Virus record (IMG/VR): IMGVR_UViG_3300025011_000164
Location: 1 to 27,113 of that record
DNA length: 27,113 nucleotides
Origin: a virus
Strand: one strand, 5' to 3'
In this document: piece by piece, positions 13,768 through 24,186 of the stretch
Layout of the letters: every line of letters begins with the position of its first letter
How positions within the stretch are numbered: the stretch's first letter is position 1
Program-made: the position numbers and the translations under genes
Notes under the pieces: model-generated
The model's input: only the letters and a program-made list of their open reading frames with translations
What the model was told of the DNA's origin: nothing
The model's database searches: none

Positions 13768-14547
13768 ATGAATTATCAAGAAAGAAAACAGAACAGAATT
13801 GAACGTTATCAAGAATTAGCAGAAAAAAACAGAGAATTAAGTTCAAATATTCATGAAGCAGCTCATAAAATGGCTTCAGTGATTCCATTTGGACAGCCCA
13901 TTTTAATCGGTCATCACTCAGAAAAAAGCGACAGAGCATACAGAGGAAAAATTGAAAGAAAATTTAAAAAATCTTTTGAAGTATTAGGAAAAGCAAAATA
14001 TTATGAGCAAAAAGCAAAAGCAGCAGAAAACAATAATTCAATTAGTTCCGATGATCCAGAAGCGGTTGTAAAACTCAAAGAGAAAATAGAAAAAGCTGAA
14101 AAGCTTCAAGAATATATGAAAAAAATAAATGCAGCTTATAAAAAATATATTAAAAATCCTGAAAAATTTAATTTTGTTGACTTTACAGAAAAAGAACAAG
14201 AATTATTAAAAACTTGGAAACCTCGTTATTCTTGGATTACAGTTCCATTTGAAAGCTACGAATTAAGTAATAATAATGCAAACATCAGAAGAATGAAGCA
14301 AAGACTTGAAGAACTTCAAAAAAAATCTAATGATAAAACCTCAGAAATTGAAATAAATGATATTAAAATTCTTGATAATGTTGAAGAAAACAGAGTTCAA
14401 ATATTTTTTCCCGGAATTCCTTCGGAAGAAATTAGAAATCAACTAAAATCAAACGGTTTTAAATGGTCGAGATATAATAAAGCTTGGCAAAGAATGAGAA
14501 GTAATCACGCTTTATATTTAGCTCAAAAAATAGTTAAAGGAGAATAA
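13768..14547 (+). CDS. DUF3560 domain protein
   Basis: A 259-residue protein. Residues about 38-100 contain the DUF3560 hallmarks I-P-F-G-Q-P-I-L-I-G-H-H-S-E, a K-A-x-x-Y-E-Q-K-A-K-A-A-E helix, and I-S-S-D-D-P-E-A followed by a Leu/Lys-rich helix. Residues about 210-256 form a separate C-terminal domain with G-I-P-S-E-E-I-R-N-Q-L-K, then F-K-W-S and W-Q-R, often found joined to DUF3560 in plasmid and phage proteins. The molecular role of the family is not established; association with mobile elements suggests anti-defence or DNA metabolism. It is followed closely by a TTG-start gene. Confidence 0.8.
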   Translation: MNYQERKQNRIERYQELAEKNRELSSNIHEAAHKMASVIPFGQPILIGHHSEKSDRAYRGKIERKFKKSFEVLGKAKYYEQKAKAAENNNSISSDDPEAVVKLKEKIEKAEKLQEYMKKINAAYKKYIKNPEKFNFVDFTEKEQELLKTWKPRYSWITVPFESYELSNNNANIRRMKQRLEELQKKSNDKTSEIEINDIKILDNVEENRVQIFFPGIPSEEIRNQLKSNGFKWSRYNKAWQRMRSNHALYLAQKIVKGE

Positions 14548-15499: not shown

Positions 15500-15712
15500 T
15501 TATAGTTTTTTAAATAAAGTTTCAAGGGTTAAATTTAAAGCTAAAGCAATTTTGTATGTATTTTCTACGGAAACGCTTGTTTCGCCTCGTTCAATCATTC
15601 CTATTAAATTTTTTGAAAGGTCAGCAAGTTCAGCAAGTTTTTCTTGGCTAATTTCTTGATTTAATCTTTCCTTCGCAATCCGCTTGCCGATGATTTTTTT
15701 AATGTTTCTCAT
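15500..15712 (-). CDS. XRE-family HTH regulator
   Basis: A compact 70-residue repressor-type protein made up almost entirely of one Cro/C1 helix-turn-helix. I-G-K-R-I-A-K-E-R-L is helix 1. The HTH is S-Q-E-K-L-A-E-L-A-D-L-S-K-N-L-I-G-M-I-E-R-G, then P/T-type helices ending L-E-T-L-F-K-K-L. The frame can be extended 19 codons to a TTG at 15767-15769, but the HTH homology begins at ATG 15710-15712. Neither start has a clear ribosome site. It probably binds the inverted repeat at 15818-15843 upstream, controlling itself and the rightward unit. Confidence 0.8.
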   Translation of the reverse strand: MRNIKKIIGKRIAKERLNQEISQEKLAELADLSKNLIGMIERGETSVSVENTYKIALALNLTLETLFKKL

Positions 15713-16022
15713 AACGGCTATTTTAGCGGTAAAAAATTTATTATCGACCCAATTATTTGGGTTTAACAAGTTTAAAAAAGCTTTATTAAAAGTGATGCAA
15801 GTTTAATTTTTATTACAAAGTGTTAAATAAGTTATAAACACTTATTATACATGAATCGTAAACAATATTATACACAAATTTTATAAATTAATTTGAATAA
15901 AACCTTGCAGATAGATTTATGTTTTGTTACTCTTTTTCATGAATTATAAAGGCTTTTAGGGAAAATGGTTTTAATTTTCTCTATTATAACAATGGAATTA
16001 GGCTATTAAGTGAGGTGTAATC
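15713..16022. promoter_or_regulatory. 310-bp intergenic control region
   Basis: An AT-rich gap between the leftward XRE gene and a rightward small gene. It contains the inverted repeat AAGTGTT/AACACTT at 15818-15824 and 15837-15843. It also has a possible rightward promoter, TTTGTT at 15923-15928 and TATAAA at 15945-15950 with a 16-base spacer. No gene was found in it. Confidence 0.5.
15818..15843. promoter_or_regulatory. Inverted repeat, XRE operator candidate
   Basis: AAGTGTT and AACACTT, 7-bp arms with a 12-base spacer, between the XRE gene and the rightward unit. Position and symmetry suit a dimeric HTH repressor. Confidence 0.45.
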
Positions 16023-16154
16023 GTGTCTGTAATTACGGATAGCGGAAAAATTGACGTGCAAAAAAATGAAAAAGAAACAACCAAAGAAATTGAAAAGATG
16101 ATCTTAGATATTTTAATTGACATTATTTATGATAATATATTTCATGAAAATTAA
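16023..16154 (+). CDS. 43-residue hypothetical protein, GTG start
   Basis: The frame begins at GTG 16023-16025 with a well placed GAGGT 6 bases upstream, which is why it is accepted despite its length. It has a charged, Lys/Glu-rich middle and a C-terminal amphipathic helix (M-I-L-D-I-L-I-D-I-I-Y). It lies just upstream of the folded RNA with the 32-aa peptide frame and may share its transcript. No family is recognised. A small antitoxin or regulator partner is imaginable but untested. Confidence 0.5.
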   Translation: MSVITDSGKIDVQKNEKETTKEIEKMILDILIDIIYDNIFHEN

Positions 16155-16270
16155 ATACTAAAGGGAATTTAAGCCCCACCTCCTGAAAGAAAAATTATAA
16201 ACTTTTACTGCCTGAATTATTATGCGGAGTAATTCAGATTCGACGCAGTTCCGCAAGGAGGATTCACACG

Positions 16271-16369
16271 ATGTGTGATATGTCGCCAGATAAATGGTTT
16301 GACATAATAAAAATAGCCCTCGAACTTCTTAGGCTATTTTTAAAAATTGTCGCTCTGTTTATCAAATAG
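16271..16369 (+). CDS. 32-residue amphipathic peptide, TisB-like toxin candidate
   Basis: The frame runs from ATG 16271-16273 (AGGAGG 9 bases upstream) to TAG. The start is M-C-D-M-S-P-D-K-W-F. The remainder is one helix of about 22 residues with Leu, Ile, Phe and Val on one side, Lys, Glu and Arg spaced along it, and a C-terminal Lys. That is the design of TisB and similar membrane-depolarising type I toxins, or of phenol-soluble peptides; similarity is in pattern, not proven homology. The frame contains a perfect hairpin at 16309-16341 that could halt antisense or sense transcription. Folding of the surrounding RNA would limit translation. Confidence 0.55.
   Translation: MCDMSPDKWFDIIKIALELLRLFLKIVALFIK
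16309..16341. terminator. Hairpin inside the peptide frame
   Basis: AAAAATAGCC pairs perfectly with GGCTATTTTT (10 bp, 13-base loop). It looks like a bidirectional terminator, yet it lies within the 32-codon frame, so it may limit sense transcripts or be part of the RNA fold. Confidence 0.5.
16337..16365 (-). promoter_or_regulatory. Possible antisense promoter
   Basis: On the leftward strand TTGATA (16360-16365) and TAAAAA (16337-16342) are 17 bases apart. A start near 16330 would make RNA antisense to the peptide frame and its ribosome site. The -10 match is modest. Confidence 0.3.
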
Positions 16370-16379
16370 GGGCTTAAAT

Positions 16380-16421
16380 GATAGGAATGTCTTTAGGCGA
16401 GATGTTCCTATCGCCCTTTTT
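16380..16421 (+). terminator. Terminator with a competing hairpin
   Basis: GGCGA (16396-16400) pairs with TCGCC (16411-16415), followed by CTTTTTT, a rightward terminator. GATAGGAA (16380-16387) also pairs perfectly with TTCCTATC (16405-16412), sharing two bases with the first stem, so the two folds exclude each other in part. Confidence 0.65.
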
Positions 16422-16459
16422 TATATTATATATCCAAATGAAAAAATTTTAAACCCTTT

Positions 16460-16834
16460 TTATTTATCTTTATACATTTCTTTTATCAAAAGATTAAACA
16501 TGTCAAGAGCTTTCATATTTCCATTAATTGCTTTTATTGCATAACTTAAAAGCTCTGGCTCTGCTTGGATAATTTCAGCTATATCATAAAATAAATCTGG
16601 TTTTAGTTTTAATATATCTAATACTTTTTTAAACTGTGGGCTGATTTCTTTTTCCTGTTCATCTTTCAATAACCCTTTTCCTTTTAACTTTTTAATAAAT
16701 TTATCTGGAATTGGATGTTTTCCGTTTTCCATCCTTGAAAGATATTCAGGAGTAATACTTAAATCAATAGCCATTTCTTCCTGGCTGCAATAATTTTCAA
16801 GTCTTATTTTTGTTAATTGTTCAGGTGTAATCAT
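16460..16834 (-). CDS. XRE-family repressor candidate
   Basis: A 124-residue protein with an N-terminal Cro/C1 helix-turn-helix: T-P-E-Q-L-T-K-I-R-L-E-N-Y-C-S-Q-E-E-M-A, then I-T-P-E-Y-L-S-R-M-E-N-G-K-H-P. The C-terminal helical part (about 60-124) is likely for dimerisation. It has no S24 peptidase domain, so it would not be cleaved like lambda CI. ATG 16832-16834 has AGGT at 6 bases; an ATG 33 bases upstream has none. The gene diverges from an RHH gene, and the shared gap carries four TTGATATTT-like half-sites. This is the best candidate for the lysogeny repressor. Confidence 0.8.
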   Translation of the reverse strand: MITPEQLTKIRLENYCSQEEMAIDLSITPEYLSRMENGKHPIPDKFIKKLKGKGLLKDEQEKEISPQFKKVLDILKLKPDLFYDIAEIIQAEPELLSYAIKAINGNMKALDMFNLLIKEMYKDK

Positions 16835-16870
16835 AATATTACCTATTATTAAAAAGTTAATTGACATTTT

Positions 16871-21064: not shown

Positions 21065-21475
21065 ATGATTGAAGAAAATCTTATGAATGACCTTACTCCG
21101 AGAGAAGGTGAAGTTCTTGATCTACTTACTAAAGGTGTAACTTATCCCGGAGTAGCTAAACAATTATTTATCAGTGAAACAACCGTAAAAACACATGTAA
21201 ATAACATCTTCCAAAAATTGCAAGTACATGATAGAACTCAGGCTGTTCTTTACGCAATAGATAAAAAGAGAGAAGAAGTAGAAGCATTACTTAAATTAAA
21301 CATGGAAAAACCTAAAATTTATTTAAAAGATAATCTTTCAGTAAATGAAATAAATATTTTAAATAATTTATCTCTTGGTCATACTATCCCTCAGGTTTCA
21401 GACAAAACAAATCTTTCCCCCTTTGAAATAGTTAATTTTCTAAATGATTTTTTTAAAAAGCTTGAAATGATCTAA
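21065..21475 (+). CDS. LuxR-type HTH protein with second degenerate copy
   Basis: A 136-residue protein without a receiver domain. Residues about 10-65 are a complete NarL/LuxR DNA-binding domain: L-T-P-R-E-G-E-V-L-D-L-L, I-S-E-T-T-V-K-T-H-V-N-N-I-F-Q-K-L, then V-H-D-R-T-Q-A-V. Residues about 90-134 repeat the pattern in decayed form (L-S-V-N-E-I-N-I-L, then L-S-P-F-E-I-V, then F-F-K-K-L). Host regulators of this class normally carry a phosphorylated receiver, so this phage form is free of that control. It overlaps the next start (TAATG). Confidence 0.82.
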   Translation: MIEENLMNDLTPREGEVLDLLTKGVTYPGVAKQLFISETTVKTHVNNIFQKLQVHDRTQAVLYAIDKKREEVEALLKLNMEKPKIYLKDNLSVNEINILNNLSLGHTIPQVSDKTNLSPFEIVNFLNDFFKKLEMI

Positions 21476-23937: not shown

Positions 23938-24186
23938 ATGCCAAAAGGAATAATTAAAAGCACAGATGAAGTCACAAAATTGACTACAAGAGAAATGGAA
24001 ACCCTAAGGCTTCTAGTCCAAGGGAAAAGTAACGCTGAAATAGCAGAAGACCTTGTTGTAAGTATCCATACTGCCAAAGCACATATTTTTAGTATTATGC
24101 AAAAACTTGAAGTTAATAATAGGGTTCAAGCTGTGGTAAAAGCAGTAAAAGAAAATATATTAGGGGATCATCAATCATGCTCGTAA
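23938..24186 (+). CDS. Stand-alone LuxR-type HTH protein
   Basis: An 82-residue protein that is a single NarL/LuxR DNA-binding domain: L-T-T-R-E-M-E-T-L-R-L-L, S-N-A-E-I-A-E-D-L, H-T-A-K-A-H-I-F-S-I-M-Q-K-L, then V-N-N-R-V-Q-A-V. There is no receiver domain. It lies 12 bases after the helicase and has AAGGAG upstream. It is a second, diverged relative of the protein at 21065-21475, and both sit in the replication operon, suggesting phage or host gene regulation timed to replication. Confidence 0.82.
   Translation: MPKGIIKSTDEVTKLTTREMETLRLLVQGKSNAEIAEDLVVSIHTAKAHIFSIMQKLEVNNRVQAVVKAVKENILGDHQSCS

Follow-up and report, generated by a model that had tools for sequence, protein, structure and literature searches.

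Folding models of its RNA suggest that the virus locus described here is likely a phage orphan resembling type I toxin-antitoxin systems. Its core (16160-16421, plus strand, about 260 bases) combines a hidden translation start signal with a gene for a 32-residue membrane-type helix, and a self-silencing toxin gene, of the type that serves addiction or dormancy in bacteria, is therefore probable. The complete proposal, in which a type I toxin-like gene carried by the phage is locked by a 5' anti-Shine-Dalgarno, sealed end to end and silenced by an RNA from the minus strand, is tentative, and we regard it as a serious possibility.

The window, i.e. the whole stretch of DNA analyzed (virus record IMGVR_UViG_3300025011_000164), comprises 27,113 bases with the G+C content of 31.6%. 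The terminase, portal- and capsid-like genes are on the left strand, and those for replication (an RNase T-type exonuclease, RecT and a DnaB-like helicase) on the right. The element is flanked by two genes of helix-turn-helix (HTH) proteins on the minus strand, 15500-15769 and 16460-16867, being convergent with the latter, and lies directly 3' of a 43-aa ORF.

Fold of the element and the encoded peptide

The features of the plus strand, with their evidence in brackets, are the following.

16023-16154, plus: 43-aa ORF just upstream of the element, GTG start, possibly on the same transcript (codon usage)
16105-16133, plus: alternative candidate promoter, TAGATA (16105-16110), 17 nt, TATGAT (16128-16133) (consensus scans)
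16117-16145, plus: candidate promoter, TTGACA, 17 nt, TTTCAT, weak -10 box (sequence, consensus scans)
16160-16177, plus: 5' arm, AAAGGG and the 11-bp closing strand 16167-16177 (RNAfold MFE, pair probabilities, shuffles)
16179-16184, plus: anti-Shine-Dalgarno CCUCCU, pairing with AGGAGG at 16256-16261 (MFE)
16207-16250, plus: 5'UTR hairpin, 10 bp (16213-16222/16229-16238) and outer 5 bp ACTGC/GCAGT (MFE)
16255-16261, plus: Shine-Dalgarno AAGGAGG, 9 nt 5' of the AUG (sequence)
16264-16278, plus: small 6-bp hairpin with the start codon (RNAfold MFE)
16271-16369, plus: toxin-like ORF, 32 aa, MCDMSPDKWFDIIKIALELLRLFLKIVALFIK (translation, helix prediction, amphipathicity)
16369-16379, plus: 3' closing strand GGGGCTTAAAT, starting in the stop codon (pair probabilities)
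16379-16421, plus: strong intrinsic terminator of the toxin mRNA, tail TTTTTATAT (-23.4 kcal/mol for 16369-16417)

The region 16160-16421 folds far beyond chance, with the RNAfold minimum free energy (MFE) of -91 kcal/mol (z = -7.31) reached by none of 200 shuffles. When 898 windows of 215 nt were tiled along both strands, two of the three most stable ones after GC correction fell in 16201-16475 on the plus strand. The first-pass annotation had described a hok/aapA-like RNA in which four complementarities meet: an 11-bp closure of the two ends, an anti-Shine-Dalgarno against the Shine-Dalgarno (SD), a hairpin with an outer extension, and a start codon inside a small hairpin. All four are present in the MFE structure and pair probabilities at the positions it gave. 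The closure (16167-16177 with 16369-16379) joins the 5' and 3' ends of the full-length mRNA, as in hok and aapA, with pair probabilities of 0.81 at its outer end, rising to 1.0; 11 bp is the longest Watson-Crick helix at an outer span of 190-230, while 500 dinucleotide shuffles yield at most 10 bp (in 3 of them). The closing strand had been placed at and after the peptide stop, and it indeed begins at the last base of the stop codon, since the latter occupies 16367-16369. The AAAGGG of the 5' arm (16160-16165) also pairs with CCCUUU in the terminator tail (16414-16419), a contact missed at the first pass, as was the strong terminator at 16369/16379-16417. The 5'UTR hairpin juxtaposes the anti-SD with the SD; shuffling the upstream stretch 2000 times produced CCTCCT by chance in 45 cases. 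The start codon (16271-16273) occupies the loop and edge of its 6-bp hairpin, with the unpaired probability of the AUG being 0.66. When 2.3 Mb of loci were scanned with a descriptor of the whole architecture, a single place matched, and it was unrelated.

The product, being shorter than 60 aa, has the predicted features of a type I toxin, i.e. a small amphipathic membrane peptide. It is predicted (without an alignment) to form a single helix, residues 7-31, with the mean pLDDT of 87; its charges (D11, K14, E18, R21, K25, K32) lie on one helix face within an arc of 80 degrees, and its hydrophobic moment is exceeded in 0.075% of shuffles (p = 0.00075). Searches of Pfam (to E 10), NCBIfam, PHROG and PDB sequences with the peptide gave no match. 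In local alignments, its scores against DinQ (p = 0.04) and TisB (p = 0.12, letters checked against the MG1655 gene) are near chance relative to shuffles; thus the resemblance to these toxins is one of design only. With no significant similarity and no match to a Pfam, NCBIfam or PHROG model, the peptide was not assigned to the TisB or DinQ family.

The structure being the strongest signal, the region could be a structured non-coding RNA or a terminator region with a fortuitous 32-aa frame. This agrees with the absence of homologues of the peptide and with codon usage, as the frame is the best of six by the codon usage of the window, but its log-likelihood ratio (LLR) is still slightly negative (-2.8). 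On the other hand, the frame starts with an ATG placed 9 nt after a good SD, its end meets the closing strand exactly, and the amphipathic pattern that it encodes is rare by chance, so that we consider a purely non-coding role improbable.

The coding region is itself more structured than its peptide demands. The MFE of the ORF is -27.0 kcal/mol, compared to -13.2 +/- 2.9 kcal/mol in synonymous recodings with the codon usage of the window, none of 500 reaching it; moreover, an 11-bp perfect stem within the ORF, overlooked by the first-pass annotation, is absent from all 2000 synonymous recodings. Hence selection beyond the peptide is probable here, on either strand.

The predicted Shine-Dalgarno lock and its opening

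The first-pass annotation had suggested, by analogy with hok and aapA, that the end closure keeps the mRNA untranslatable until the 3' end is trimmed. In hok and aapA mRNAs, a long-distance interaction between the 5' and 3' ends is silencing, and 3' trimming activates (PMC6733600; PMC5668327). For the present element, an equilibrium folding model restricted to pseudoknot-free structures gives the same SD unpaired probability, about 0.14, whether the RNA is of full length, truncated ahead of the closing strand, or nascent with its end at 16275 or 16300; the cost of opening the SD is 7.0 kcal/mol at full length and 7.5 kcal/mol without the 3' closure. In contrast, deletion of the first 27 bases, which carry the 5' anti-SD, lowers this cost from 7.0 to 4.0 kcal/mol and raises the unpaired probability from 0.14 to 0.40. 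The accessibility in nascent and trimmed RNAs, together with the opening costs, indicates that in this model the SD lock is local and 5', and is already in place when the 3' end has yet to be transcribed. By these figures (14% unpaired, 7.0 kcal/mol), the primary mRNA is predicted to be structured and translationally inert, as in type I systems.

These values bear on the reading in which the closure is the lock, slow 3' trimming activates the mRNA, and an antisense RNA then silences it. The 5'-3' closure is genuine and sited at the stop codon, and the precedent of hok and aapA speaks for such control; however, removal of the closing strand and all 3' sequence leaves SD accessibility as it was, and the anti-SD is a 5', local segment rather than a 3'-end one. 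As the SD is insensitive to the 3' end, we reject this mechanism as the primary one and deem it unlikely overall. The part of the earlier reading that stands is the anatomy, as in type I toxin genes: the mRNA is compact, inhibits itself and encodes a small peptide of membrane type. Activation by 3' trimming does not stand. In this model, the closure would make the mRNA more compact and stable without shutting the SD.

The mRNAs of tisB, dinQ and zorO are activated through loss or processing of the 5' end (PMC5668327), and opening of the element by 5' processing would resemble this logic. According to the folding model, the element may thus have the look of hok/aapA and the logic of tisB/dinQ/zorO. 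In the fold of the 5'-trimmed RNA (16187-16420), GGGGC of the closing strand is able to re-pair with GCCC of the terminator.

Under the preferred type I toxin-like reading, the primary mRNA would be silent from birth, CCUCCU capturing the SD once transcribed and the AUG being held in its small hairpin, and a transcript with its ends sealed together beside the terminator should be compact and long-lived. Translation would need the 5' anti-SD segment to be removed or displaced, presumably by 5' processing; the 32-aa product, an amphipathic helix, may then enter the inner membrane and depolarize the cell. The fold, the ORF, the terminator, the amphipathicity and the excess structure of the ORF are computed results, and transcription, the antitoxin, processing and toxicity are inferred. 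The weakness of the plus-strand promoter, whose -10 box TTTCAT departs from the conserved A in position 2, counts against this reading, as does the dependence of the 5'-processing step on an equilibrium, pseudoknot-free fold.

The 43-aa ORF has coding-like codon usage (LLR of +7.7 in its own frame, negative values in the others) and no family in Pfam, NCBIfam or PHROG; its weak PADLOC match to AbiEi (E 0.001) covers 28 residues only and was discounted. The element could respond to translation of this ORF, as an attenuator or a coupled second cistron, considering that the ORF end (16154) is 13 nt before the closing strand. Still, a ribosome terminating at 16154 falls short of the anti-SD at 16179, and the two frames do not overlap, unlike mok-hok, making such coupling very unlikely.

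The minus strand and the convergent repressor gene

The silencing partner of the toxin-like gene would be a minus-strand RNA over the 3' part of the mRNA, ending at the terminator-like site within the toxin ORF and originating from a separate promoter and/or from read-through of the convergent repressor gene. The features of this strand are listed below.

16453-16425, minus: candidate antitoxin promoter TTTAAA-17-TATAAT (10/12 consensus matches)
16311-16418, minus: predicted antisense RNA of about 105 nt, start near 16418 (from promoter and terminator)
16311-16339, minus: intrinsic-terminator-like stem inside the toxin ORF, AAATAGCC...GGCTATTT, tail TTATTATGT (terminator scan)
16460-16867, minus: HTH_3 repressor-like gene, convergent with the toxin (Pfam HTH_3, E 1.2e-5; PHROG transcriptional regulators)

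The site at 16339-16311 is the only minus-strand terminator-like one between 15780 and 16900. The predicted antisense RNA would overlap the 3' part of the toxin mRNA, the closing strand included. A minus-strand RNA, either from about 16418 or as the 3' tail of the repressor mRNA, is a plausible candidate antitoxin. Across the 27-kb window, the minus strand has about 7 promoter-like places with 10/12 matches, hence the chance of one in a target of 80-100 nt is about 2-3%, and this few-per-cent chance also counts against the type I reading. The stem within the ORF may serve the mRNA fold rather than antisense termination.

As the terminator scan found no terminator of the repressor-like gene before the toxin ORF is reached, the 3' tail of its mRNA would be antisense to the 3' half of the toxin mRNA and end at the terminator-like site in the toxin frame. 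That the repressor mRNA itself is the antitoxin seems rather improbable; were it so, immunity and addiction would be one RNA, and a cell losing the repressor or the prophage would also lose the antitoxin.

The adjacent repressor gene would also suit lysogeny-linked functions of another kind. The same peptide and SD lock would serve a lysis accessory or a superinfection exclusion protein whose mRNA is translationally controlled and which has no antitoxin RNA. However, the peptide matches no family, and the excess structure of the ORF and the antisense-oriented terminator would be superfluous for such a membrane protein, which leaves this alternative unlikely, if worth keeping in mind.

Beyond the repressor gene, the segment 16857-16964 is a divergent early/repressor control region with TTGACA promoters on the plus strand at 16861 and 16904, a 13-nt perfect inverted repeat TTTGATATTTTAT/ATAAAATATCAAA (16870-16882/16909-16921), and repeated TTGATATT. 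The inverted repeat and the TTGATATT repeats are likely operators of the repressor. TTAATTGACATT from this region is found again at 16113, upstream of the element. The TTCATGAA palindromes near both plus-strand units (15936 and 16141) show no enrichment.

Relatives, known type I systems and the phage setting

The peptide, the DNA and the motif have no homologue in the phage, plasmid, viral-contig and genome-contig collections. In particular, neither blastn of the element region, nor tblastn of the peptide against phages and plasmids, nor the N-terminus of the peptide as a degenerate DNA pattern yielded a relative. A 16-mer of the 5' arm had 15 chance matches, none with the architecture. The gapped closure/anti-SD/SD motif was absent from genome contigs and occurred in 69 stretches of viral contigs, about the number expected by chance, none being a relative after the fold and ORF were checked. 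The neighboring repressor, DUF3560, terminase, DnaB and RecT genes have distant relatives only, and their gene order is not shared. At gathering scores, Rfam has no match to the element, and sub-threshold matches (eukaryotic snoRNA and miRNA, E 0.58-2.3) are chance ones; by Rfam and Pfam, the element does not belong to the hok or aapA sequence families. As no relative was found, the type I toxin reading is based on one sequence, and the resulting lack of evidence from covariation, its main weakness, and from peptide conservation counts against it.

Among known systems, tisB/IstR-1, dinQ/AgrB and zorO/OrzO of E. coli resemble the element in a single amphipathic or hydrophobic helix of 27-32 aa with a narrow charged strip (the charges of TisB are on one narrow strip, and DinQ has a polar patch at 17/20/24; PMC8309996), and in a primary mRNA silenced by 5'UTR structure, the element opening on 5'-end loss in the model. 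They differ in that their antitoxins are encoded apart from the toxin, whereas that of the element is a predicted convergent cis-antisense RNA; they have no significant sequence similarity to the element, and the review PMC5668327 does not report end-to-end closure for them.

With aapA/IsoA of Epsilonproteobacteria and hok/Sok, the element shares a compact mRNA, the 5'-3' interaction, anti-SD elements and a small membrane peptide, toxic in those systems (PMC6733600) and presumably so here. In contrast to them, the strand that masks its SD is 5', loss of the 3' end leaves the SD closed in the model, the peptide is unrelated, and an overlapping mok-type frame is absent.

The txpA/RatA, bsrG/SR4 and yonT/SR6 systems of B. 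subtilis prophages are phage-borne, like the element. According to PMC5848175, these toxins have a convergent antisense RNA of about 100 nt over the 3' end of the toxin mRNA, which the predicted antisense RNA of the element resembles. The latter, however, is a prediction and would end inside the toxin ORF, and the peptide of the element is shorter and amphipathic.

If the proposal is true, the element would be an unrelated phage-borne answer to the common problem of type I toxins, transcription without translation; it would unite locking by a 5' anti-SD with sealing of the two ends, devices used separately in known systems, and place the terminator of the antitoxin inside the toxin frame. A type I-like system would thereby be added, in a phage without a close relative on record. 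It would also show that structure can reveal such loci where protein and RNA family libraries give nothing.

At 21065-21475 and 23938-24186, the plus strand encodes two small HTH proteins of the LuxR/NarL type that lack receiver domains; they share about 50% identity with response regulators from Synechocystis, Chloroflexota and other groups, and are unusual in a phage. These genes are a possible host clue, judging by sequence likeness, and Gastranaerophilales-type Cyanobacteriota were considered as a candidate host on account of the low GC content and the LuxR likeness; used as a host probe, the LuxR-type gene has matches spread over many phyla. As cyanobacterial regulators are among these matches, msoT1/msoA1 of Microcystis, the first type I candidate in Cyanobacteria, has a possible phylum link as its only common feature with the element; MsoT1 differs in having two predicted membrane helices (PMC12390103).

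The DUF3560 protein (13768-14547, plus strand) also matches a PHROG called primase, and its relatives, about 40% identical, are in viral contigs with very different GC content (0.23 and 0.42). The segment 14761-14960, which separates the DUF3560 operon from the convergent genes, folds strongly on both strands and is probably a bidirectional terminator.
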